A DNA stretch of 24,623 nt from a virus. The DNA is taken from positions 1-24,623 of IMG/VR virus record IMGVR_UViG_3300037234_000372. One strand, written 5' to 3'. The stretch's first letter is position 1; the number at the start of each line of letters is the position of its first letter. Under the pieces are notes generated by a model. That model saw only the letters and a list, made by a program, of their open reading frames with translations. It was not told where the DNA came from and did no database searches. A program made the translations under genes and the position numbers. Below are positions 1 through 23,814 of the stretch, piece by piece.

Positions 1-2
1 CC

Positions 3-119
3 AAGCTGGACGATGCGTTCTGGCAGCACGGTAGGTGGGGAGAATGGGAAGACAACTTCAAGAAGGCTAGAGAGATCATGACGGAAGCAAACATAAGGAT
101 CATAGATCATGTCATTTGA
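3..119 (+). CDS. C-terminal end of an unidentified protein (partial, start outside window)
   Basis: An open frame runs from the left edge to a TGA at 117-119 and encodes the last 38 residues of a protein (begins [20 protein letters not shown], ends IIDHVI). The other two forward frames stop at 31-33 and 79-81, so this is the only one that reads through. The piece is rich in Trp and charged residues and has no recognisable motif. It overlaps the ATG of the large glycosyltransferase gene by 11 bp, which marks it as the preceding gene of the same operon. Operon context suggests another sugar-related enzyme, but that is inference only. Confidence 0.6.
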
Positions 120-3100
120 CCAGCAAGGTAACTGGATAGGCAAGACGCAGGAAGAGCTAGATGGTTTCGAGGATACCCTCAACCAAGATGCATACGAGAT
201 CCCGCAGGAACTACAAGAGCAGTTCAATGCGCTAGGGATGCAGGTGCTAGAAGGTAATAGTGCTCTAGTTAAGTCCAACAAGAACACTAAGGCCTCCTTC
301 TTGAACCTCCTAGCCAAGGGAGTGAAGCCAGCGGACATCATCATCCCTGTATACGGAGGGCTGCATGTCCTGATTGACTGCCTCAACTCCATTCAGGCTA
401 GAACCCTATGGCCTCACAAGATAATCTTAGTAGACGACTGCTCACCTGATGAGGATACCAAGAACTTTCTAACTACCTGGGCTGAGGCTAACCCAGAGCA
501 TACCGTCCTGTTCAATAAGAAGAACAGAGGGTTCGCCGCCACAGTGAATCGTGGTATAGAACACGGAGATGGGGCTTATCTTTGCATCCTTAATTCGGAT
601 GTGGTTGTCACCCCTGGCTGGTTGTACAAGCAGATCATGGCGCTTGAGGCTAGCCCCCTGAACAAGATCGTCAACCCTTGCACCAACAACACGGCCGAGA
701 TCGCTATCCCTATGCAAGAGGGCTACGACTACAACGATATGAACCGGGCATTCGAGAGACTATCTTCTCATGCCTACCCGGAGATCATGCCGACAGGGTT
801 CTGCTTTACTATGGAACGTTCTCTCATCAATGAGATTGGATCCTTTGATGAAGGGTACGGCTCCTACGGAGAAGAGACAGACCTCTGGATGCGCTGCGTC
901 TCTCGCATCTCTAATGGGCAGGTGTCTAACTGGCGGGCTGTGCTCGCAGACGACACCTATATCTTCCACGAGAGAGGCACATCGTTCGGCGTCTTGGGTA
1001 CTGAGGAACATATGGCCTTTCGTAAGGCAGGGTCAGCTAGGTTCCATAGCATCTGGCCCGGGTTCAAGGCCCTCTTTCGTACCTACAATTTCAAAAAGAG
1101 TCTTGCTGCTTTGAGGTCTCCTATCGGAACAGAGCTTATCAAGAAACAGAAGCCTCGGTATAAGATATGCTTCGTGGTCTTCAGTACAGAGAACTGTGGT
1201 GGCATGAAGGTAATAGCTGACACCGTTAACTGCCTCAATGAGATAGGGGTAGAGGCTAAAGTAGCACACATCAAACGCGAGACGGAGATGAAGAAGAACG
1301 TATTGCCTTCACTACGCAGCGAGCCTATCGTATTCGATGGGTACTCTGACTTCGTTACCAACTTCGAAGCGAGAGTGTTCTCAGACGGCATAGTGGTAGC
1401 AGGCACAGGCGAGCTGATGGGAGCCGTGGCAGCGGTAACAACTGACAACCCTAAGCTCACCTCTTTGCATTTCTCTCAGAGTGATGACGTGTCTATCGCT
1501 CCCACTACCTCCTTGAGGAAGAGCATAGCCTCAGCTAACAGGCTGGCTGACTATACCATTACCAACAGCAAGTGGACAGCAGCTAAGATGGCTAAGAAGC
1601 ACAAGGTTAGCGGTAGCATATCGGTCGGGTACGACAACCTAATGTTCTTCCCTCATGGTAGGGACAAGGGTGACGATAGACCTACAGTGCTGGTGTCTCT
1701 AGGCAACAAAGTCTATCCCTTCAAGGGGCACGATCGCGGCGTGGATATGTGCGAGCACCTATACAAGATGTGTAAAAAGGATAAGAAGGAGATCCGTATC
1801 CTAGCCAACGGTGTGGATGCAGTGCAGGGTGCTGAGTTCATCATAGGGCTGGGTGTGTTGAATCAGTCTAAGTTCGCCACTATACTAGGGACAGAGGTAG
1901 ACGTGTACTGTGACCCTGCCCACAACCATAGCTATGGGCTACCTACCCTTGAGGCAATGGCTTCGGGTGTTGTACCTGTGTGCTGGAACAACAAGGGTGT
2001 AACTGAGTACGCTACCCATGACCGAGATGCCATCATCCTAAACAATAAGACGGCGCCCGAGGTCATGGCTGAGCGCATCTACAACCTCCTCTTCAATGAA
2101 CCTAAGAGGATGGAGCAGCTCAGGACTGAGGGGTTGAAGACAGCAGCTAAGCTACCTAGAGCAGATGGAGTACTAGAGTTTATAGAACTCCTAGAGAATG
2201 CACTCGACCTCAAGTTTGAGCCTAAGAACATCGCAGTCATCACGCCTCACCTCCGCAAGTACGGTGGGCCTACTACTATACTAGACACGGCTAACCTACT
2301 ACAAGAGGCAGGCCACAATGTTGCGCTATATACCATCTACCCTGACATAGATCCGGCCATCCAAAGGACAAGTAAGGTACCTATCCGGGTGGACTGGAAG
2401 AACATCCCGCCTTGTGACGTGTTGATCTCCAACTCAGACAACCCTCACAACGATATGTTCCTAGAGATGGCACACATCAAGAAGAAGGTGATGCTCAAGC
2501 TGTCCCACAACGAAAGGTTCAAGGAGTTGGAAACCAACTCACTCAACCTAGAGTGGGATGCTATAGCCACCAGCACCGGCTGGTTGCGGAAGGCATGCAA
2601 TACAGTAACGGAAGGTTGGGACTACAGCACAGGCCACAACGTTAAGCGTGTAGGCTGGTACCACTACGGCCACTCACAGTTCGCTCAGCTCACTCACCAA
2701 AGGAGCTACGGCAACAACAAGGTAGGAATAACTATAGGAACCTTGATCCACCAGCACCCCCTAAAGGGTACTAACGAGGCTCTTGTTGTCATGGAAGCAC
2801 TGCTTAAGAAGCACCCCGGTGCGATTCGTATGGTGGGTGTAGGTGAAGTCCCTGGCTTTGATAAGACTAAGCCTCCGTGGTTGAACTACGTAGCTGGGCT
2901 CTCTAGAGAGGATATGTCTCGTGTGATGTCACAGGTAGACATTTGGTTGGTGGCATCCCACACCGAAGGGTTGGGCCGCATGACCCTAGAGGCTATGTCT
3001 AGTGGGTGCGCCATCGTATCTACTGACACACAGGCTGAGTTCCTCAAGGATGGACAGAACTGCATGCTCGCTAAGGTAGGAGATGTTCAGGGCTTGACTA

Positions 3101-3237
3101 ACTGCTGTGACAGGCTGTTCAATGCTGCGCCACTGAAGGCGGATCTAATACAGAATGGGCTAGCGACAGCCAAGAAGGCAGCGGACCCCACAGATTATAT
3201 CACTAACTGGAACAAGGTCATAGGAGATTTGTTTTGA
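109..3237 (+). CDS. Three-domain glycosyltransferase (GT2-GT4-GT4 fusion)
   Basis: This 1042-residue protein carries three glycosyltransferase modules, so it could add several sugars in sequence to one acceptor in the host cytoplasm. Residues 1-70 are a helical leader. Residues about 75-340 are a GT2 (GT-A fold) domain with IIIPVYGG at 77-84, the nucleotide-binding Asp pair at 109-110, an NSD metal-binding motif at 162-164 and EETD at 255-258. Residues about 350-695 form a GT4/GT-B domain (GGMKVIADT near its start; [10 protein letters not shown] near 611-620). Residues about 705-1042 form a second GT4 domain ([23 protein letters not shown]) with a canonical E-x7-E pair at Glu953 and Glu961. 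In the middle domain the first Glu of that pair is His607, while the second (Glu615) is kept, so this domain may be altered or inactive. Fold assignment is confident; sugars and acceptor are unknown. The gene overlaps its neighbours on both sides. Confidence 0.9.
3222..3226 (+). promoter_or_regulatory. Ribosome binding site for the TTG-started small gene
   Basis: AGGAG lies 7 bases before the TTG at 3234. It sits inside the last codons of the large glycosyltransferase gene and supports a non-ATG start for the next reading frame, which has no nearby ATG. Confidence 0.6.
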
Positions 3238-3401
3238 ATAGAGATGAAGCTTTTGAAAAGCTAGTAGAAGCGGTAGACAAAGCCGGGACTGCTCAGTTCG
3301 ATAACGTAGATGCTGCCTTCAACGTGGCAGCGCAGGCTCTTAACTATATCATGGACAACATCAAGGAAGAAGATGAATCCGAGACTAAAACTACTGATTG
3401 A
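3234..3401 (+). CDS. Small acidic helical protein, TTG start
   Basis: This is a 55-residue reading frame that starts with TTG in a 4-bp TTGA overlap with the stop of the large glycosyltransferase gene. An AGGAG lies 7 bases upstream. The product ([20 protein letters not shown] at residues 2-21) is amphipathic and helical, with an acidic, polar tail ([12 protein letters not shown]). It has no Cys, membrane segment or known motif. It fills the stretch that would otherwise be empty between two glycosyltransferase genes, and it overlaps the next gene by 29 bp. Coding character and ribosome binding site support it being real; function is unknown. It is easy to miss because it lacks an ATG. Confidence 0.62.
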
Positions 3402-3561
3402 GGATGTGAGGCGCACGCATATCCCGTTGTTCATTAGGCCTACCTACGGAACGGATAAGGCAGAGGCGTACTGCTACGGGTGCAAGGGGTTGGAGTTTGA
3501 TTGTCCTGTCTTGAAGGCAGCAAAGGAGTTGGAAGATGACGACCAGAGCAATAGCAGTTAG
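3373..3561 (+). CDS. Small Cys-containing protein, possible zinc knuckle
   Basis: This 62-residue protein begins [21 protein letters not shown] chose the ATG at 3373 because AAGGAAG lies directly upstream; the frame stays open to 3310, but that extension reads as non-coding overlap. Its core is CYGCKGLEFDCPVLKAAKEL, a CxxC followed by a third Cys. That resembles the many small phage proteins with a C-x2-C...(P)C metal-binding knuckle. It overlaps the upstream gene by 29 bp and the following GT2 gene by 26 bp, so translation of all three is probably coupled. No specific function can be assigned. Confidence 0.6.
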   Translation: MNPRLKLLIEDVRRTHIPLFIRPTYGTDKAEAYCYGCKGLEFDCPVLKAAKELEDDDQSNSS

Positions 3562-4282
3562 CACATACAATAGGGCCTCTCAGATAGGTGAGCTGCTTGA
3601 GGGCATCCTTACTACTATGCCCCCTGACACAGATGTATTCGTGTGCGATGATGGCTCTACTGATGGCACCATCAACGAGGTGCTAGAGTTCCCCAACGTC
3701 CAGCTCTACTCTGCTACTAATATGGGGGTGGGTGTCAACAAGACACGGTGCCTGTACTTCCTGAAGAACTACCACTTCAGCTGCCTACTTGAGGATGACC
3801 TTGTGCCTATAGAGCCGCACTGGTTTGAGACATACGAGACAGCGTCCAAGCTGATGGATGTCCACCACTTCTGCCGCGTGCAGGGCAAGGAGATCCCTGA
3901 GACTATGCCTTCATTCACGGAGTATATGAAGTCTACTATGAACGCCACCCCTATCTATTCGGCCTCTCCAAGAGGTGACCTAACCTTCATAACGAGGCGC
4001 GTTATTACACAGGTTGGTGGCCTTAACCCTCTGTTCCAGGGCGTAGGCTACGCTCATGGTGAGTGGTCAGCGCGGGTAGCTAAGGCAGGGCTTATCTCTC
4101 ACCCTCTCCACTGGATTGACATCGCCGAGGCGCGCGACAAGTTCAAGCAGGTAGGAGACACGGAAGGTGGGCGCTGGGAAGATGACCCTATTGAGATCAA
4201 GAAGCAGATGCAGTACAACAAGAGAGTCCTACGCAACCTGAATACACAGGACTACATCCATAGCCCCTTGAGGATCGTCTGA
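3536..4282 (+). CDS. GT2-family glycosyltransferase
   Basis: This 248-residue protein is the size of a single-domain GT2 (GT-A) enzyme, which transfers a sugar from a nucleotide-sugar donor. The N-terminus AIAVSTYNRASQIGELLEG is the usual first strand and helix. VCDDGSTDGT at 36-45 is the nucleotide-binding motif (Asp38, Asp39). LLEDDLV at 84-90 is in the position of the metal-binding DxD (Glu86-Asp87-Asp88). A GYAHGEWSARVAKAG stretch near residue 175 fits the acceptor-side ED/W region of such enzymes. AGGAG is placed about 8 bases before the ATG. The start overlaps the previous gene by 26 bp, and the stop shares one base with the next ATG (TGATG). Donor and acceptor cannot be read from the sequence. 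Confidence 0.85.
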   Translation: MTTRAIAVSTYNRASQIGELLEGILTTMPPDTDVFVCDDGSTDGTINEVLEFPNVQLYSATNMGVGVNKTRCLYFLKNYHFSCLLEDDLVPIEPHWFETYETASKLMDVHHFCRVQGKEIPETMPSFTEYMKSTMNATPIYSASPRGDLTFITRRVITQVGGLNPLFQGVGYAHGEWSARVAKAGLISHPLHWIDIAEARDKFKQVGDTEGGRWEDDPIEIKKQMQYNKRVLRNLNTQDYIHSPLRIV

Positions 4283-5199
4283 TGGCCAACATCATCCTAG
4301 GGCGCAGGCTTCCTCTGGACAAGAGAAACAACCCGATTGTCTCCTACTCTGACAGCACAGAGCAGGCGCTCTTAGACCTCGGTCACACGGTAATCCCTAT
4401 GGGAGAGGGCTACGCTTCTGAAACTCTAGACGAGCTACCCGGTGGCATAAAGACACACGCTGACTTCTTTCTCGACCTTGACTGTGGGCGTAACAAGCAA
4501 GGTGACCTAGCCTTCCAGACCGAGAAGCCTTTCCTCCCTTCAGCCGTGAGATACATAGACACCCACGGCCACCCCAGCCTGCACAAGAGACAGGCTGAGT
4601 TCTACGACCATGTGTTTTTTGCTGTATGGGATAGGCGAGACCTATTTGCTAAGCACCCTTCGGCCCACTGGTGTCCTAACGCTAGCGATGCCAAGTACTT
4701 CGACAAGATGATTAAGCCTGAGGCCCACGGGTCTCGTCCTTTTGACGTAGGCTTCTTCGGTAGTAAGGGAGGGATAGACAGGGCTGATATCCTCAAGGAG
4801 ATTTGTGAACGCCACTGCTGGGCAGTTGACATCCGGGACATTGGGAAGAACCGCAGCCGCTGGCCTGCCACAGCTGAGGCTATGGCCCAGTGCAAGGTGC
4901 TGTTCAACAAGGGACAGAAGCACGACGGACCCAACCAGCGAGTGATAGAGTCCATGTTAATGGGCCGTCCCTTGGTGAGTGACAGGGACGATCGGGATGG
5001 TATGTCTAAGCTGTTTGAGATAGGAGAGCACTACCTTAGCTACGATTCAACCACCGAGCTGGCAGACAACCTGGGCTGGTGCCTACGTGAGCCGTCCTTG
5101 GCTGCATCTATGGCTGACAGAGCATTCAACTTGGCGCTAGAGAAGCACCAAGTCAAACACAGAGTAGAACAGATACTGGAGGTGTGTGGTGTCAAGTGA
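4282..5199 (+). CDS. CgeB/GT4-like (GT-B fold) glycosyltransferase
   Basis: This 305-residue protein looks like a short GT-B enzyme of the CgeB / Glyco_trans_1_2 type. The N-terminal half has a Rossmann-like start (ANIILGRR, then LLDLGHTVIPMG). The middle has the typical FDVGFFGSKGGIDRADILKE at about 153-172, a strand-loop-helix seen where CgeB-type proteins begin their C-terminal domain. The C-terminal nucleotide-sugar region reads VLFNKGQKHDGPNQRVIESM and then GRPLVSD, followed by LFEIGEHYLSYDSTTEL, which matches the family pattern of a conserved Arg/Glu helix, a Gly-Pro turn and a final acidic loop. No membrane segment is present. It is coupled to the preceding GT2 gene by a 1-bp TGATG overlap. 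The family call is good; the substrate is unknown. Confidence 0.72.
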   Translation: MANIILGRRLPLDKRNNPIVSYSDSTEQALLDLGHTVIPMGEGYASETLDELPGGIKTHADFFLDLDCGRNKQGDLAFQTEKPFLPSAVRYIDTHGHPSLHKRQAEFYDHVFFAVWDRRDLFAKHPSAHWCPNASDAKYFDKMIKPEAHGSRPFDVGFFGSKGGIDRADILKEICERHCWAVDIRDIGKNRSRWPATAEAMAQCKVLFNKGQKHDGPNQRVIESMLMGRPLVSDRDDRDGMSKLFEIGEHYLSYDSTTELADNLGWCLREPSLAASMADRAFNLALEKHQVKHRVEQILEVCGVK

Positions 5200-5428
5200 A
5201 CGCTGCGATATGGGGCTCCCTGATTTCGGTTTGGAATGTCTGCGTCCTAAAGGACACTTTAGTCATACCTGTCCTTGCTTCTCCATTTATAGAGATCCAA
5301 AGGATGCCTTCTTTGGTATGGGAGTTTACATAGATCATAACAGTAGTGGGATGTTCGACTGTGAGACATGGTTGGTTGATGATGAGTTTCCTGATGACAT
5401 TATACTGGAGGTGAGTGGCATTGAGTAA
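5189..5428 (+). CDS. Small Cys/His-rich protein, probable zinc binding
   Basis: A 79-residue protein of unknown function. Two consecutive GTG codons (5186 and 5189) could start it. I prefer 5189 because GGAGG at 5178-5182 is then 6 bases away rather than 3. Residues near the N-terminus read CDMGLPDFGLECLRPKGHFS and then HTC. This C...C...GHxxH pattern is common in small phage proteins with a compact metal-binding fold. The rest is acidic and aromatic (ETWLVDDEFPDDIILEVSGIE). It overlaps the CgeB-like gene by 11 bp and the next glycosyltransferase by 14 bp. Metal binding is inferred from the residues only. Confidence 0.6.
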   Translation: MSSERCDMGLPDFGLECLRPKGHFSHTCPCFSIYRDPKDAFFGMGVYIDHNSSGMFDCETWLVDDEFPDDIILEVSGIE

Positions 5429-6182
5429 GATTGAAGGGCTGACCCCTACCATTCTAGTGATGAACGATCAGTACTGGCTTCCTTACGCCTTAGAGTCTCT
5501 CCGAGGTAGGTTCCACCGCTACGTGATCTACGATGCAGGCTCCGAGGATGGCACAGAGAACATCATCGACTGGTTCGTAGAGACAGAGGATGCCGAGTTC
5601 TTCGTACGCAAGCTGCCATTCGCCGTCCCTGCTATCCAAGGGTGCTACCGCAACTCCATGCTAGTGGAGGCAGAGACAGATTGGACGTTCATGGTGGATG
5701 CGGACGAGGTGTACCACCCTGACAGCTTGGACAACCTGATCGAGAGGATCACTCCTAAAACTGATCATAGTCGCATAGGAGTTATGGTAGAGAAAACCCT
5801 GTACGGGGTAGTTAGGCGCACTGAGATGGCTACGAACTTGATCCACCGCTATTCAGAAGTACGCACACACCACCGCATGTACCGCCGCGGCGCGTACTTC
5901 ACAGGCACCCACCCAGGAGAGGTACCTAAACCTAAGCAGAACAAAAACAACGAGTTTCACATGGACAATGTGATGTGCTGGCACTTCCACAACGCTCTAC
6001 GTTCGCCCTTGGAGGGGTCGGTACCGAAGAGGCTAGATAGAAAGTCACAAGGCACGTACCACCCAGGAGAGCTTGAGACTTTCGATCTGTTGGAAGAACT
6101 GCCTATCTTGCGGGAGCCGATCAACAACTTCCCAGTTAGCCCTGACTTGGAGAGGTTGCAGCATGTCGCTCGTAAAATGTAA
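5415..6182 (+). CDS. GT2-like glycosyltransferase
   Basis: This 255-residue protein has GT-A fold signatures. TPTILVMNDQYWLPYALESL forms the first strand and helix, YDAGSEDGT at 39-47 is the nucleotide-binding loop, and FMVDADEVY at 92-100 supplies the DxD metal site (Asp95-Ala-Asp97). An HRMYRRGAYFTGTHPGEV stretch and a CWHFHN motif lie in the acceptor half, resembling GT2 enzymes that glycosylate proteins or lipopolysaccharide. The start is uncertain: GTG at 5415 lies only 3 bases after GGAGG (5407-5411), while an in-frame TTG at 5421 is 9 bases away and may be the real one. The 3' end overlaps the next small gene by 20 bp. It is the last enzyme of the glycosyltransferase operon. Confidence 0.8.
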   Translation: MALSKIEGLTPTILVMNDQYWLPYALESLRGRFHRYVIYDAGSEDGTENIIDWFVETEDAEFFVRKLPFAVPAIQGCYRNSMLVEAETDWTFMVDADEVYHPDSLDNLIERITPKTDHSRIGVMVEKTLYGVVRRTEMATNLIHRYSEVRTHHRMYRRGAYFTGTHPGEVPKPKQNKNNEFHMDNVMCWHFHNALRSPLEGSVPKRLDRKSQGTYHPGELETFDLLEELPILREPINNFPVSPDLERLQHVARKM

Positions 6183-6357
6183 GTGCGGTAGGTACACCCA
6201 GAATGGGTTCCTCTGCACTAACTGTCAGAAGGACGCCTCGATCGACACATCCTACTATGAACCTGATGTCGTAGAGGATGAAGAGGAACTCGATGAGCTA
6301 GGGTTCACTATCATTGACAGCTTAGAAGGGTACGACGATGAAGAGGAAGACGATTAG
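6163..6357 (+). CDS. Small zinc-ribbon-like protein with acidic tail
   Basis: A 64-residue protein starting at the ATG at 6163, with GGAGAGG about 7 bases upstream; the open frame further upstream is overlap with the glycosyltransferase. The N-terminal 25 residues hold four cysteines in CKCGRYTQNGFLCTNCQ, a CxC...CxxC pair typical of a small zinc ribbon. The remaining 40 residues are strongly acidic (DVVEDEEELDELG, then YDDEEEDD at the end), suggesting a basic binding partner or DNA mimicry. It is the last gene of the forward operon. Its TAG stop overlaps the stop codon of the converging gene. Function unknown. Confidence 0.65.
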   Translation: MSLVKCKCGRYTQNGFLCTNCQKDASIDTSYYEPDVVEDEEELDELGFTIIDSLEGYDDEEEDD

Positions 6358-6731
6358 AAGTCTATCTCGTACTCAGGATTCTTCCGCACACCCGAGTCGT
6401 CACACATAAGGTTCCATGCCTTCTCGATAGACGAAGCATGCTTGTCTAGCAGATCCCATTCCATTTTCATATAGTAACACTTGAGGTGACCGTACTTGAA
6501 GTCGCTGTCGCTCTCAGCCCTTTCAAGGCAGGATTTGTAATGGTTGAAGGTATGCACCATCCCGTCGTACAGGAAGGTATAGATCTCATCTAGGCCATCG
6601 CACGGCATACCTAGGTATGCTCTCACTAGGTTGGGATCGGAGTGATCGTCGCGCGGCGGGTCAACAATAGCTCCTGCTACCACAGCCATGCTCAGTATAC
6701 CCACCCCTACTATGATAGCCAAGATCTTCAT
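6354..6731 (-). CDS. Membrane-anchored or secreted four-cysteine protein (paralogue 1)
   Basis: A 125-residue protein with a hydrophobic N-terminus (ILAIIVGVGILSMAVVAGAIV, about 3-23) acting as a signal peptide or membrane anchor, and a soluble domain holding Cys44, Cys68, Cys85 and Cys110. The cysteine spacing (C-x23-C-x16-C-x24-C) and residues around it match the upstream neighbour at 6728-7078, so the two are paralogues. If exported, the cysteines could form two disulfides. The ATG overlaps the previous stop in ATGA, preceded by AGGTGAAG. It is the last gene of the virion operon. Position after the ejection-protein gene makes a lysis or envelope role conceivable, but nothing in the sequence proves it. 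Confidence 0.7.
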   Translation of the reverse strand: MKILAIIVGVGILSMAVVAGAIVDPPRDDHSDPNLVRAYLGMPCDGLDEIYTFLYDGMVHTFNHYKSCLERAESDSDFKYGHLKCYYMKMEWDLLDKHASSIEKAWNLMCDDSGVRKNPEYEIDF

Positions 6732-7078
6732 TCTTCACCTGTGTAGGTTGAGCATTCTTTAGCGTTGAAGACATCCACTATCGCATTGCTTTGGCCTTGT
6801 AGAAACTGCCCGTGTTGCTTGATGAGAGCGCAGTGCAGCAGCCCATATCCGTTGTCAGCAGGCGAGTCAGCATAGGCTATACAACCTTGCCAGTAAGCGT
6901 ACACGTCTTGTAGTAGTGTGTGGTTGAAGTTGTACCCTTCTACTAACTCTTCGCACGTCAGATCCTCAAGCAGCCAGTCACCGTTGAAGTCCGCGCTATT
7001 GGACCGCATGGCCACTAGAAATAGGATAGCCAACACACATGTAATTCCAAGCGCACATACTAGTAACCTTTGAACCAT
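6728..7078 (-). CDS. Membrane-anchored four-cysteine protein (paralogue 2)
   Basis: A 116-residue protein with an N-terminal membrane segment (RLLVCALGITCVLAILFLVAM, about 4-24) and an exported domain with Cys42, Cys66, Cys83 and Cys109. The spacing C-x23-C-x16-C-x25-C is almost identical to that of the downstream gene. Shared positions include C-[DE]-x-L-x-E-x-Y-x-F after the first Cys and YGxLxC before the third. I start it at the ATG at 7078, which has AAGGGAG 5 bases upstream. A GTG at 7093 is possible but lies inside the end of the preceding gene and lacks a site. The pair probably arose by gene duplication. Whether they act as a heterodimer in the envelope, in lysis or in exclusion of other phages is not known. 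Confidence 0.7.
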   Translation of the reverse strand: MVQRLLVCALGITCVLAILFLVAMRSNSADFNGDWLLEDLTCEELVEGYNFNHTLLQDVYAYWQGCIAYADSPADNGYGLLHCALIKQHGQFLQGQSNAIVDVFNAKECSTYTGEE

Positions 7079-7079
7079 C

Positions 7080-10000
7080 TTATCTCCCTTCACCCTTCAT
7101 ACGTTGTGCATTTCTTAGAGCTTGCAACAGTTGTTCTCTTGCCTTGCTGCGGTACCCACCTGCCATCTTCCCTGCTCGTTGTAGCCTCTCTATAAGCTCA
7201 TTCTCGCTCCAGCCTCTCAGGCCGGGAAGCTGACCTAGCTGCTCAACGTGTCGCTCTAGCCACTCCGTGTACTTATTCTGTGCCATTACAGGGCTGTGCA
7301 GGTATTGTTCGGTGTAGGTTCCTTGGATGTCTGTTAGGATATCGACCACATCCTTCTCATTCCCTTCGCTGGTGTGGAAGTCAAGGTTCTTAGACAGATG
7401 GTTTCTCACCTTGGTCAGGTGCTTCTCAGCTAGCTGCTCATTCGCCAGCTGCTGCTCACCCGTGGCTGAATACGACTTGAAGATACCCACGTTGTTCAAT
7501 AAGAAGTCGGTGGTCATGTTGCCAGGGCGTCCCGTCATCGGATCGATGGCGTTGCCTGTGTCTATCAGCGCTTTCGAGATGTTGGTGAGGCCAGTCGGTT
7601 CACCCCACAGCGGGACATCAGGAGTCGTCAGCCTAAAGCCGTACTTCTGAAGGAAAGGTGGGGCCATGAACCCAAGGATACCAGCTATAGTCTTGCCAAC
7701 CCCACCCTCTATAGGCTTACCGTTACCGTCTTCACCTGTGAACGCCTGCACCATAGGCTTGAGGATGGCCAGCGGGTCAGCGGGCATCTGTTCCAACAAA
7801 CCTGCCGCATCCCTCCAGGGGAGTGCTCCGGTTCCAGCGAAGTCAGTGGAGGTGCTCTTCAAGAAGAACGTGGAGTGAGGAAGGAAGTCAAGTAGCGCAC
7901 CACGCATCTGGTTGCCGTGCTCCTCGTCCGTCCCTAGTGCCATTCCGAGGCCTAGCCCAACACCTCCGACGCCAGCACCTATGTATGCTTTCTTGGCTAT
8001 AGCTGCCCCGGCCTTGGCACCGGCCATGGCACCCTTGGCACTCCGAGCACCTGCCGCTCCTAATGCCGCTCCTGCTACAGCACCAACCACGCCACCAGTA
8101 CCTGCGCCACCTATCCCTGCCAGAGACTTACCAGTTCCGACTACGGTGGTGTACTTCTGTGCCCAGGTAGGTAGCTGCTTCTTGATGCCTGATACTTCTT
8201 GAGGGTCACCGGCGAAGCCCATGCCACTCATTATAGTCTGGGAGATCTGGGGCGCTCTCAACCAGGGGATCATGCGGAGGGGGTGATCCATCAGGTTGTT
8301 CTTAGTAATACGCATGGCCTCAGCCGGGAACGTGGCCCACGGGAAGGCGAACTTACGACCATACTTGATGGCAGACCCAACGGTTCCATACATGGGAAGC
8401 CTACGGGCCACCTCAGTTACGGCAGCTTTGCGGGTGAGGCCTTGGCCTCGGAGGTGCATGAAGTACGTCATCTTAGGGATCATGTCCTCAGCCAGATAGG
8501 CCTTAGTCATCTGGTCGAACCACTTCGCTTTGCCTCTGCCTTGGGCAATATCCTTTGCACTTAGGAACTTGTCGATGAAGCCCTTGGTGAAGTACTGCTC
8601 TTTTCGGAGGGCATCCCTCAGCCGCAGCAGGTGTGCCGAGCCTTCCACACTCTCAAAGGCTGACTCTTCCATTAGCTCTTTGACTGCGGGGTCGGTTAGC
8701 TCATCCAGCATATTAAATTCTTTGCCACCAGTGCGAACCTTTCCAAGGTTGATTCCCTTGAAGCGGTCTGCTCCTCTGAGCCCTGCGGCGTTAGCGGCCT
8801 TAGTCATTTTGGCATAGTCGTTGAATGTGTGGGTCATCTCACCCATCAACTTCAGGTTCTTGGGGGCCATCGAGTTGAAGCCAGCCTGATACAGGAACGA
8901 GATATTACCTGTCAGGTTCTGGAAGTGGGTGGCTGGATTCAGGGCCGTCTTCATGGTCTTGTAGATGGTTGTCATCACGTCCATCATATTACCAGTGATA
9001 CGGTCACCCTGGAACATCATCCCTTCCTTGCCGAAGATACCGTCGAACACATTCCTATCAATCCAAGGGAGATCCGCCTCATCTAGCCCTGTCTTCTTGG
9101 CGATCATACGCTTCAGGATTGCCGTCGGTCCTTCACCTGCGGTGTCCATCCGAACAAACCCTAGCTTATGCATCTTACGAGAGTCGAACCCCAAGCTCTC
9201 TACCTTGGCGAGGCTCCAAACCTTATCGCCCTCTTTGGTTAGCATATCAGTGACGAACTGGTAGTTGGTGTGAAGGATACCATCATTGATGTACCCTTGC
9301 ACGGTCATCTCAGCGGGATCAGTGATAAGCTCACCCGCCTCCAACCGTCCGAAGATGTCAGTGTGATCCCCACCTCTATGCTTCAGGGTATTGCTGGTAA
9401 GCCTGGGTTTGTTAGCAACCTTGACAGCGATGGTTGTGAACTCTTCCTCATTTACAGGATTGAATACTGTTGTCTCACCAAATATTCCCTTCTCTTGCTC
9501 CTTGACCAGACCTTTAGCTCGGGTCTTCGGAGCGCCCTTCGGGGGCTTGATGGGAATGAGGTGGGTAGTAGTAGCACCGATGCCTAAGTCAGGGGTGCCC
9601 TTGCTAAGTGCCGGAAGATGAGCAGGGCCTACCCTCATGTATGTATCTTGAGTGATGAACCCACTCTCTAGCATCTCGTCCTGTCGCTTACGTGCTGCGG
9701 TGAGATAGAAGTCAGCCCACTCCTTGTTCTTGGCTGACAGCTTACCAAACCTACCAGCAGCCTTGGCTGCGAGGCCAGCCCCCGGTGCAATCTCCCCAAG
9801 GATGTAGCCATAGATGGCATCTTGCTGCTCGATACCGGGCATCTCACGTAGGATGGTACCCATAGTATCGTTCTGCCACAGCCTCTGGTGCATGTCATGG
9901 AACTGGTTCTTGATATCACCATTCTTAGCGTCTTGGATCATACCATTATAGGTCTGAGAGAACCTCTTATCAAACGAGTGCCGCATCGACTCCATCTTTG

Positions 10001-10730
10001 TAAGAGGGATGGTGTCTAGCCCTGCTACTTCGTTCGCCCTATCCGCCCGAAGCTTCATCTTTCGGTAGCTTTCGTTACTGAACTCTTGCTTACGGAGCAT
10101 ATGGATGACATCGTCGTCAAGTTCTGAATAGCTCTTCAAGTTCTTGAACCTATCAGGGTCTAGCATAGCTGAGATCTCTTGGCCTTCTTTTCCTAGCCCC
10201 TTGCCAAGCCACCTATCTATCTCCACCTTCTCGGCTGTGGTCCCTGCTCTCAGTGCGGTGAGACCCTTACCAACCCTCATAGTAGAGCGCGCCGCTAGCG
10301 TAGCAGGCAGCACTATCGTCCCAAGGAGGGAGGTGGTAGCGAGGGCGTTAACCCAGAGCGGTTCTTCTGACCACTGCTGTTGGAGGTTGTCTATGCTCCA
10401 TGACCAGCCCTCGGCATCGTGGGCGATGCCAATGACGGCGGCTTCAGGCCCGAACAGGAAGTCGAAAGTCTTAGTAGCCATACCATCTTGGGGGTCTTTG
10501 CTTAGGCGGGAGGATACCTGCCTAATGCTGACGGGCTTGTCGGGGTTACGAGGTTCGAAGTTCGTTATACCTGCGCGGGGAGGCAAGGGCTTAGAGCTAA
10601 AGATAGAAGGGCTCCTAACCTGCTTGTCCTTTTTGAACAGGCCAGCTGCCTCATCTTTCTTACTACCGATTTGGCCCCGGCGAGGCGCTACATAACCCTG
10701 CTCTGTAGTCCAGTCACTACCTTGTCCCAT
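7080..10730 (-). CDS. Very large internal virion / DNA-ejection protein (T7 gp16-like by position)
   Basis: A 1216-residue, mostly helical protein that ends the tail/ejection gene set. Length and gene order (after gp14- and gp15-like genes) match the large ejectosome protein of podoviruses (T7 gp16 is 1318 residues). These are carried in the capsid and injected to help DNA cross the envelope. A hydrophobic stretch lies at about 122-147 (WVNALATTSLLGTIVLPATL). A long Gly/Ala-rich segment lies at about 872-933 (GVVGAVAGAALGAAGARS and GAGVGGVGLGLGMALG), suited to membrane insertion. TALNPATHFQNLTGN near 595-610 resembles the 'large polyvalent protein' (LPD38-type) domains found in giant phage ejection proteins, but this is a tentative match. 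No lytic transglycosylase motif was recognised. AGAGGAT precedes the ATG. Confidence 0.7.
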   Translation of the reverse strand: MGQGSDWTTEQGYVAPRRGQIGSKKDEAAGLFKKDKQVRSPSIFSSKPLPPRAGITNFEPRNPDKPVSIRQVSSRLSKDPQDGMATKTFDFLFGPEAAVIGIAHDAEGWSWSIDNLQQQWSEEPLWVNALATTSLLGTIVLPATLAARSTMRVGKGLTALRAGTTAEKVEIDRWLGKGLGKEGQEISAMLDPDRFKNLKSYSELDDDVIHMLRKQEFSNESYRKMKLRADRANEVAGLDTIPLTKMESMRHSFDKRFSQTYNGMIQDAKNGDIKNQFHDMHQRLWQNDTMGTILREMPGIEQQDAIYGYILGEIAPGAGLAAKAAGRFGKLSAKNKEWADFYLTAARKRQDEMLESGFITQDTYMRVGPAHLPALSKGTPDLGIGATTTHLIPIKPPKGAPKTRAKGLVKEQEKGIFGETTVFNPVNEEEFTTIAVKVANKPRLTSNTLKHRGGDHTDIFGRLEAGELITDPAEMTVQGYINDGILHTNYQFVTDMLTKEGDKVWSLAKVESLGFDSRKMHKLGFVRMDTAGEGPTAILKRMIAKKTGLDEADLPWIDRNVFDGIFGKEGMMFQGDRITGNMMDVMTTIYKTMKTALNPATHFQNLTGNISFLYQAGFNSMAPKNLKLMGEMTHTFNDYAKMTKAANAAGLRGADRFKGINLGKVRTGGKEFNMLDELTDPAVKELMEESAFESVEGSAHLLRLRDALRKEQYFTKGFIDKFLSAKDIAQGRGKAKWFDQMTKAYLAEDMIPKMTYFMHLRGQGLTRKAAVTEVARRLPMYGTVGSAIKYGRKFAFPWATFPAEAMRITKNNLMDHPLRMIPWLRAPQISQTIMSGMGFAGDPQEVSGIKKQLPTWAQKYTTVVGTGKSLAGIGGAGTGGVVGAVAGAALGAAGARSAKGAMAGAKAGAAIAKKAYIGAGVGGVGLGLGMALGTDEEHGNQMRGALLDFLPHSTFFLKSTSTDFAGTGALPWRDAAGLLEQMPADPLAILKPMVQAFTGEDGNGKPIEGGVGKTIAGILGFMAPPFLQKYGFRLTTPDVPLWGEPTGLTNISKALIDTGNAIDPMTGRPGNMTTDFLLNNVGIFKSYSATGEQQLANEQLAEKHLTKVRNHLSKNLDFHTSEGNEKDVVDILTDIQGTYTEQYLHSPVMAQNKYTEWLERHVEQLGQLPGLRGWSENELIERLQRAGKMAGGYRSKAREQLLQALRNAQRMKGEGR
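7084..7090 (-). promoter_or_regulatory. Ribosome binding site deciding the start at 7078
   Basis: AAGGGAG on the minus strand lies 5 bases before the ATG at 7078. It is within the last codons of the large internal virion protein gene. It favours the ATG at 7078 over the upstream GTG at 7093. Confidence 0.55.
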
Positions 10731-22605: not shown

Positions 22606-22998
22606 TTATACTAGTTCCGGATTCGAAGAGTCACCATACGCCAGAACCACGACAGCAAACGCTTCACTGTCATTTGCTTCTACCTGTGTGGACGCATCAT
22701 CAACGAGTAGCAATTTTCCTTCGTTTCCTGATTCAGCAATATACACCCCAAGGTTAGGGATCGTCGCAGTCGGGACCAAGTTGAGAGAGTGATACACATT
22801 GCAACCAACAACGAGAGTATCGATCTTTGAAAGACCAAGCTCCAGTGCTGTTAGCACGATACCACCTGTGTTGTAGGTACCCGTAATCTCAGCGACTACT
22901 TCAACTTTGCTGTTTGAGGCAATACCCGTGAGGGAGTGACCGCCACCAGCAAATCGACTTTTGATAAGTGTCTTAACGTCAAAATCACCATCAGCCAT
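22606..22998 (-). CDS. 130-residue virion-like protein, paralogue C
   Basis: A 130-residue beta-rich protein, last of three tandem paralogues. Conserved positions with the two upstream copies include MADGDF at the start, GGGH near 18-21, ASNSK, TGTYNTGG, LGLxxID, ASTQxEA and AYGDS, ending PELV. Repeats of this type (low charge, Gly/Thr/Ala-rich, no signal peptide) are typical of abundant capsid decoration or minor head proteins, which fits the position in the operon. GGAG lies upstream of the ATG in the 15-bp spacer. A Cys near residue 65 (VVGCNVYHS) is not shared with the other copies. Confidence 0.72.
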   Translation of the reverse strand: MADGDFDVKTLIKSRFAGGGHSLTGIASNSKVEVVAEITGTYNTGGIVLTALELGLSKIDTLVVGCNVYHSLNLVPTATIPNLGVYIAESGNEGKLLLVDDASTQVEANDSEAFAVVVLAYGDSSNPELV

Positions 22999-23013
22999 TT
23001 TGTGTCTCCTTTA

Positions 23014-23406
23014 TTATGTGAGTTCCGGTGCGGCGGCAGAATCACCAAACGCTACGATGGTACATGAGAACGTTTGAGAGTCTGTTGCCTCTGCCTGTGT
23101 GGATGCATTGGTATGAAACATCAACAGCCCATTACTACCAGACACAGCAAGATACTGTCCTGTATGAGGGTCTGCGGCACCCGGTGCATTGAGGGTATTC
23201 GGATGGACTTGACTTACAAGAATTGCATCAATCGTTGTAAGGCCAAGAGAGGTCGCATACACTGCGACACCACCGGTGTTGTAGGTACCTGTAACAGATG
23301 CCACAACGCGAGTCTTAGAGTTGGAAGCAGCACCTAGAATAGTGTGCCCGCCACCTTCAGCTCGATCTTTAGCGAGTACTTTAACTACGAAATCGCCATC
23401 AGCCAT
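23014..23406 (-). CDS. 130-residue virion-like protein, paralogue B
   Basis: A 130-residue protein, the middle copy of the tandem trio, starting MADGDFVVKVLAKDRAEGGG and ending in FGDSAAAPELT. TRVVASVTGTYNTGG is shared almost fully with the first or third copy, and the 15-bp spacer and the end of the gene are near-identical in DNA to those of the neighbour copy. It differs mainly in the middle region (about 62-85), as expected for exposed loops. AAAGGAGA lies in the 15-bp spacer before the ATG. A structural virion role is likely; head or tail location is not shown. Confidence 0.72.
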   Translation of the reverse strand: MADGDFVVKVLAKDRAEGGGHTILGAASNSKTRVVASVTGTYNTGGVAVYATSLGLTTIDAILVSQVHPNTLNAPGAADPHTGQYLAVSGSNGLLMFHTNASTQAEATDSQTFSCTIVAFGDSAAAPELT

Positions 23407-23421
23407 TTTATTTCTCCTTTA

Positions 23422-23814
23422 TTATGTAAGTTCCGGTCCTTCTGCTGAGTCGCCGAACACTACAAGCGTAGTAGAAAAAGCAGTCTCAGCCGCCTCTGCT
23501 TGTGTGGTCGCGCTAGTATTCAGAATGAGCAGCCCTTCAGCTCCAGAACGAGCAGCATATGCTACCCGGTTAGGTGTGCCACCCGCGGGTGCTGTATCAG
23601 CATCAACAAATGTGTTCGCACCACTAAAGATAGCATCAATAGTTTCGAGTCCAAGATCTGATGCTTTCAGTGTAACCCCGCCCGTCGCGTAAGTCCCTGT
23701 AATAGAGACTACAATGCGAGTCTTGTTGTTCTTGGGCTGACCATTGATATTACGCCCGCCTCCATCAATTCTCGCGGCAGAGAGTGTTCTAACATCGAAA
23801 TCGCCTGCGGCCAT
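23422..23814 (-). CDS. 130-residue virion-like protein, paralogue A
   Basis: First copy of the trio, again 130 residues: MAAGDFDVRTLSAARIDGGG at the start, TRIVVSITGTYATGGVTLKA in the middle, and FSTTLVVFGDSAEGPELT at the end. It is the most divergent at the amino acid level (for example NPKNNK-type changes at about 26-31 and a longer Ala/Pro-rich loop near 72-80), although its length and the spacing of conserved blocks are unchanged. AAAGGAGA precedes the ATG. It lies 12 bp after the DUF1353-like gene. Confidence 0.72.
   Translation of the reverse strand: MAAGDFDVRTLSAARIDGGGRNINGQPKNNKTRIVVSITGTYATGGVTLKASDLGLETIDAIFSGANTFVDADTAPAGGTPNRVAYAARSGAEGLLILNTSATTQAEAAETAFSTTLVVFGDSAEGPELT

Follow-up and report, generated by a model that had tools for sequence, protein, structure and literature searches.

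The chlorovirus PBCV-1 encodes A111/114R, a three-domain glycosyltransferase (GT) with about 300 amino acids per domain that is kept in all chloroviruses and is credited with three of the five core sugars (PMC7826918). In phages, mycobacteriophage-encoded GTs decorate capsid and tail-tube proteins, according to the passages of PMC12619734 and PMC11256854 that cite Freeman et al. (2023), and in the moraphages, an uncultured phage lineage, four GT orthogroups count as core genes (PMC12619734). Here we describe a GT cassette at 109-6182 of a genome fragment of 24.6 kb from an uncultured virus (IMG/VR record IMGVR_UViG_3300037234_000372; 24,623 nucleotides, hereafter the window), which holds six GT modules in four proteins and recurs in its relatives in one fixed order. 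To judge from the genomes compared, an uncultured clade of podoviruses carries the cassette as part of its core genes and not as accessory cargo; the GT families are already known, and what is new is their fixed core arrangement. The four enzyme genes are:

109..3237, + strand: GT3x, three-module glycosyltransferase (Pfam, AlphaFold2, Foldseek, 39-sequence alignment)
3536..4282, + strand: GT2a, single-domain GT2 enzyme (Pfam 2.6e-8; phrog_2456 4.2e-24)
4282..5199, + strand: CgeB-like GT-B glycosyltransferase (PF13524, Glyco_trans_1_2, 7.1e-18)
5421..6182, + strand: GT2b, GT2 enzyme (PF00535/PF13704; GT2 match 1.5e-7, called over 5415-6182)

In gene order the modules are GT2-GT4-GT4, GT2, CgeB-like GT-B and GT2 (Pfam, AlphaFold2). 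The initial annotation had described four enzymes with six GT modules on one strand, overlapping and interleaved with very small genes, and this was confirmed by Pfam, by AlphaFold2 models of GT3x and the CgeB-like protein, and by the overlaps themselves: from 109 to 6357 every gene, the interleaved mini-genes included, lies on the + strand, each neighbouring pair overlaps by 1-29 nt, and most starts are preceded by ribosome-binding-like sequences. Domain searches kept the four proteins within GT families, with matches above the curated cut-off for the respective proteins (PF00535, PF13692, PF00534, PF13524), and by these matches the enzymes belong to known families (GT2, GT4 and CgeB-like Glyco_trans_1_2).

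GT3x (1042 aa) comprises a GT2 module of GT-A type (residues ~75-300), a GT4 variant (GT-B, ~350-700) and a GT4 module (GT-B, ~707-1041). Pfam placed GT2 at residues 77-243 (2.6e-22) and recognized two GT4-type domains, the best stretch being 873-1017 and PF13692 and PF00534 each covering two stretches, and AlphaFold2 returned one GT-A and two GT-B units (mean pLDDT 86.8). DD, NSD, E255, K886, E953 and E961 are invariant in the 39-sequence alignment; the third module keeps K886 and E953-x7-E961, and in 38 of the 39 sequences the E-x7-E motif of the second begins with His607 instead of Glu, so that this domain reads as a variant GT4. In GT2a, D38 D39 and E86 D87 D88 are invariant (34 sequences), as are D40, D95, D97 and E98 (DxDE motif) in GT2b (24 sequences), whose start is most likely the TTG at 5421 because a relative begins MSKIEGL. 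The CgeB-like protein is modelled as a complete GT-B fold (pLDDT 89.5), with PimA as best Foldseek match (3.7e-12). Over the cassette models, Foldseek matched BshA, PglA, PimA, a capsule multienzyme and polypeptide GalNAc-transferases, and the closest multi-module matches in the viral structure library were giant-virus glycosyltransferases.

Scans of viral contigs returned 51 loci for GT3x and 24 for the CgeB-like protein, and 31 examined contigs with all four GT genes form the base of the cassette counts (in one, L065, the contig begins inside the first gene). GT order and strand were identical in 31/31, down to about 40% identity, with spacing of up to 3.2 kb where other genes had been inserted, and the gene for a putative ejection protein was convergent to the cassette in all 25 contigs in which it was detected. 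Because searching with the GTs would be circular, a search with the capsid protein was added. Among the capsid-bearing contigs inspected, all those reaching past the ejection gene carry the cassette and the remainder end earlier, no contig passing that gene without it; this search also recovered two carriers missed by the GT searches (G029 and G036), the former matching part of G004 almost exactly. The cassette is present throughout the sampled clade, with its domain content, catalytic residues and order intact. In 50,697 phage records (megablast and protein searches) nothing closely related to the window, GT3x, the CgeB-like protein, GT2b or the tail protein was found, GT2b and the CgeB-like protein giving zero sequence matches, and since the best capsid match was only 28% (Microbacterium phage Shocker), no cultured member was usable.

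Phage GTs are usually treated as optional cargo, whereas this set is kept about as strictly as the head-tail module, despite an identity of about 37% in the putative polymerase. Median pairwise identity was 77% for the capsid protein, 55% for the portal, 51% and 42% for the TtA-like and TtB-like proteins and 27% for the ejection protein, and in the cassette 52% for GT2a, 47% for the CgeB-like protein, 45% for GT2b and 43% for GT3x. Replication-type genes, whose labels are our own reading of the sequences with no profile search, gave 39% (helicase-like), 37% (polymerase-like), 36% (RecA-like) and 34% (SMC-like), the number of genomes differing among gene sets. The GT genes are better conserved than the putative DNA polymerase, RecA-like and ejection genes, and distances in GT3x track those of the TtB-like tail protein (Spearman 0.84), the ejection protein (0.82) and the helicase-like protein (0.86). 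The ratio of nonsynonymous to synonymous substitution rates (dN/dS) against the nearest, 91%-identical relative (L003) was below 0.4 for each of the four GT genes and for the mini-genes, and 0.16-0.38 for the GT genes alone.

Inteins favour the active sites of needed proteins. In two relatives (L060:6807-11153 and L054:3943-8343) the GT3x gene is interrupted by an insert of about 390 aa, in frame and bearing a LAGLIDADG homing-endonuclease domain; it sits in the GT2 module, exactly between GEE and (T/S)D of one motif. Class 3 inteins are marked by the triplet Trp B:12, Cys F:4 and Thr G:5 (PMC5222942); read by eye, the insert offers candidate W, C and T residues, M as first residue (a non-nucleophile, as in class 3) and junctions N/S and N/T. 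We regard it as probably a class 3 intein that sits in the active-site motif of the GT2 module of a phage glycosyltransferase, the call staying at "probable" because no splicing-motif profile was among the matches listed.

Capsid, portal and terminase genes occur in the same records as the GT genes. One of these records, G002, closes into a map of 119,512 bp: its ends overlap by 87 bases and one gene crosses the junction. The capsid protein of G002 matches NCBIfam capsid_maj_Podo and its portal P22_portal, both above cut-off, and it also has a terminase. An integrase-family gene in G002 and relatives makes temperate growth possible. A scan of 84,980 species genomes matched the cassette only once, on a contig of a metagenome-assembled genome (MAG) that also carries the capsid gene. 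Deltaproteobacteria were considered as host on this account and dropped, a single MAG contig being too weak a basis and itself of phage-genome size (119.6 kb). On that deltaproteobacterial contig (that of L119) an insertion of about 0.9 kb, possibly an intron, splits the capsid gene near codon 20 (L187, L188).

A second, variable carbohydrate island lies near the terminase gene (L081:16000-20000 with L082:1-5700 in G002; L092 in G003). Carbohydrate-type genes outside the cassette, many of them in this island, include Sulfotransfer_4, methyltransferases, extra GT2s, an epimerase, a hexapeptide transferase and a nucleotidyltransferase. Together with the fixed cassette, such an island suggests that the glycan has a conserved core and that its decoration varies. 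The initial annotation had sugar donors coming from the host or from genes outside the window. This can now be made more precise: a UDP-glucose-dehydrogenase-family protein and an NDP-sugar epimerase/dehydratase are each found in 6 of 18 phage records of relatives, outside the stretch covered by the window, and the 119.5-kb relative G003 has neither family, its donors therefore being supplied by the host or by genes that went unrecognised. In G004 the UDP-glucose-dehydrogenase-like gene (L096:15692-17056, - strand) runs on into NUMOD4 and HNH domains, which suggests invasion by a homing endonuclease.

The mini-genes and the genes flanking the cassette are as follows:

1..119, + strand: 3' end of the dCMP deaminase gene preceding the cassette (complete in L003 at 2012-2497; PF00383, 4.2e-22)
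3234..3401, + strand: m1, 55 aa, TTG start, 4-nt overlap with GT3x (dN/dS 0.34 against L003)
3373..3561, + strand: m2, 62 aa, Cys-containing (similar open reading frame (ORF) in L005 and L006; ribosome-binding-like AAGGAAG upstream)
5186..5428, + strand: m3, at most 80 aa, lineage-specific (kept in L003, dN/dS 0.38 on few changes)
6163..6357, + strand: m4, 64-aa Cys4 (CxC...CxxC) mini-protein with acidic tail, last cassette gene (alignment)
7080..10730, - strand: large putative ejection or internal virion protein, convergent neighbour of the cassette (role suggested by its place in the tail module)

An ORF resembling m1 follows GT3x in L005, L006 and L009. For m3 the ATG at 5210 is a more likely start than 5186, and the gene was recognised only in the nearest relative, other ORFs taking its place in L009. 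The m4 gene recurs across the clade, following GT2b in 26 of 31 contigs; of the other five, three stop at GT2b or within about 110 bases of it and two (L051 and L052) seem to lack m4. From 6354 on the genes run leftward, with two small proteins, then the 1216-aa ejection candidate and the tail/ejection module. The two small genes (6354-7093, - strand) overlap and encode Cys-containing proteins with N-terminal hydrophobic segments, for which no family match was found. PADLOC returned no defence-system match.

As to what is glycosylated, the initial annotation had listed virion proteins, hypermodified bases and the host O-antigen; the first is favoured here, the last stays a candidate and DNA is disfavoured. 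We give an even chance to a cassette that assembles an oligosaccharide stepwise, probably on at least one virion protein. Stepwise assembly, a virion target and roles for the mini-proteins are what we infer; the oligosaccharide of up to about six steps first proposed is a fair upper bound, at one module per step. The chain would be built in the cytoplasm of the host, while particles assemble or earlier, with GT2b or the GT2 module of GT3x starting it and the remaining modules extending it in fixed order. In some lineages the sugar donors for it, or the enzymes that tailor it, would come from the second island with its epimerase, additional GTs, sulfotransferase, methyltransferases and hexapeptide transferase. 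A virion target is favoured by the six modules with conserved catalytic residues, by collinearity in 31/31 contigs and by conservation parallel to that of virion genes. A cytoplasmic acceptor fits because no transmembrane segment was found in any cassette protein. Moreover, among solved structures the profile of GT2b comes closest to the protein glycosyltransferases GmaR (1.4e-9) and SunS (8.5e-7), with a weak NCBIfam match to the SunS family, a likeness that would also speak for a virion protein. More tentatively, and with less than an even chance, the whole clade may require a self-made virion glycan, with a core chain from the six-module, four-enzyme cassette in every member and lineage-specific sulfation, methylation and sugar epimerisation from the second island.

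Several observations weigh against a virion target. The cassette adjoins nucleotide-metabolism genes on the early-type strand, apart from the virion genes; the match of GT2b to GmaR and SunS is confined to about 110 N-terminal, nucleotide-binding residues, with the acceptor region outside it; GT2a and CgeB-like distances track the others poorly (0.14 and 0.53 with GT3x), which may come from saturation or exchange; and host surface glycans, too, are made by peripheral cytoplasmic GTs.

Glycans of mycobacteriophages are located at C-termini, and the capsid C-terminus (TGLxxPTY-like, 42 sequences) was considered as acceptor and dropped as evidence, a near-invariant end possibly serving structure. 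A scan of the structural proteins in the window revealed no Ser/Thr-rich stretch prominent enough to name an acceptor. At 22606-23814 (- strand) the window encodes three tandem 130-aa paralogues with no Pfam match, and relatives encode similar proteins downstream of their capsid gene, G030 having four copies; they are possibly head decoration proteins and, as such, candidate glycan acceptors.

The main competitor to a virion glycan, appreciably less probable, is that the cassette modifies or builds a host surface glycan (O-antigen, capsule or exopolysaccharide unit) for superinfection exclusion or lysogenic conversion. O-antigen conversion by phages is well known, the GT2 and GT4 modules resemble exopolysaccharide, capsule and Pgl enzymes, and the integrase-family gene of G002 and relatives would suit it; this gene does not adjoin the cassette, however, and the single species-genome match, on a phage-genome-sized MAG contig, is no typical prophage. 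The cassette also comes without a flippase, polymerase, GtrA-like or other membrane partner: the membrane flippase or GtrB-type neighbour of a Gtr cluster is missing, and similarity to phrog_841 GtrB is weak and at GT2 level. Near-universal conservation would moreover be atypical, as conversion genes vary with host serotype.

Glycosylation of hypermodified phage DNA bases appears improbable. Phage DNA glycosyltransferases exist, and genes for dCMP deaminase, ThyX, a dNMP kinase and similar nucleotide functions precede the cassette, but such genes also serve ordinary nucleotides and ThyX yields ordinary dTMP. Of 20 records searched, a single one gave PF00303, the thymidylate-synthase family to which base hydroxymethylases belong, and G002-G004 (119-121 kb) gave no match; with the family not found in the other 19, one of them a closed genome, DNA glycosylation by known routes is unlikely. 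TET/JBP (PF12851) gave no match in the records searched, a silence that carries little weight because the search lacked a positive control.

Equally doubtful is that the cassette glycosylates a small metabolite, or a peptide with m4 as the acceptor. The m4 gene is almost always last and overlaps GT2b, SunS-like enzymes act on Cys of small peptides and m4 has four Cys, and small molecules are substrates of BshA/MshA-like folds; nonetheless, the Cys pattern of m4 reads as a zinc-binding knuckle, L051 and L052 have the four GTs with no m4 found, and six modules are many for a small metabolite. That accessory GT genes were collected by chance in this one phage, as the PHROGs category would allow, phage GTs usually being moron or auxiliary genes, is strongly disfavoured by a cassette present, collinear and highly conserved throughout the sampled clade.

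Within the literature searched, whose coverage left out most subscription papers, no cassette of this kind and no phage-GT intein is described. At the level of single enzymes, GT2b shares with GmaR and SunS the GT-A nucleotide-binding domain and not the acceptor-binding parts. The capsule multienzyme 8qoy and giant-virus multi-GT proteins are the best whole-length fold matches, and full-length TM-scores of only ~0.2-0.3 place the similarity at the level of modules, not of the whole arrangement. Among phages, the available text of PMC11256854 gives mycobacteriophage Maravista two putative GTs near the genome end, as against six modules in a fixed block here, and the moraphages, compared by description only, are jumbo phages with contractile tails for which the accessible text of PMC12619734 describes no fixed cassette. 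Closest in function is the chlorovirus capsid N-glycan pathway, with which the cassette shares a virus-encoded three-domain GT, although that pathway belongs to a eukaryotic algal virus, the present order is GT2-GT4-GT4 with three further operon enzymes, and the comparison is one of description. Given the fixity of the set and the probable active-site intein in two relatives, required glycosylation in bacterial viruses becomes a concrete and testable proposal, and the cassette offers a compact natural enzyme set for stepwise glycan assembly. If the proposal is true, the cassette would be the bacterial-virus counterpart of the chlorovirus capsid-glycan pathway, its glycan a required part of the particle and not an accessory.

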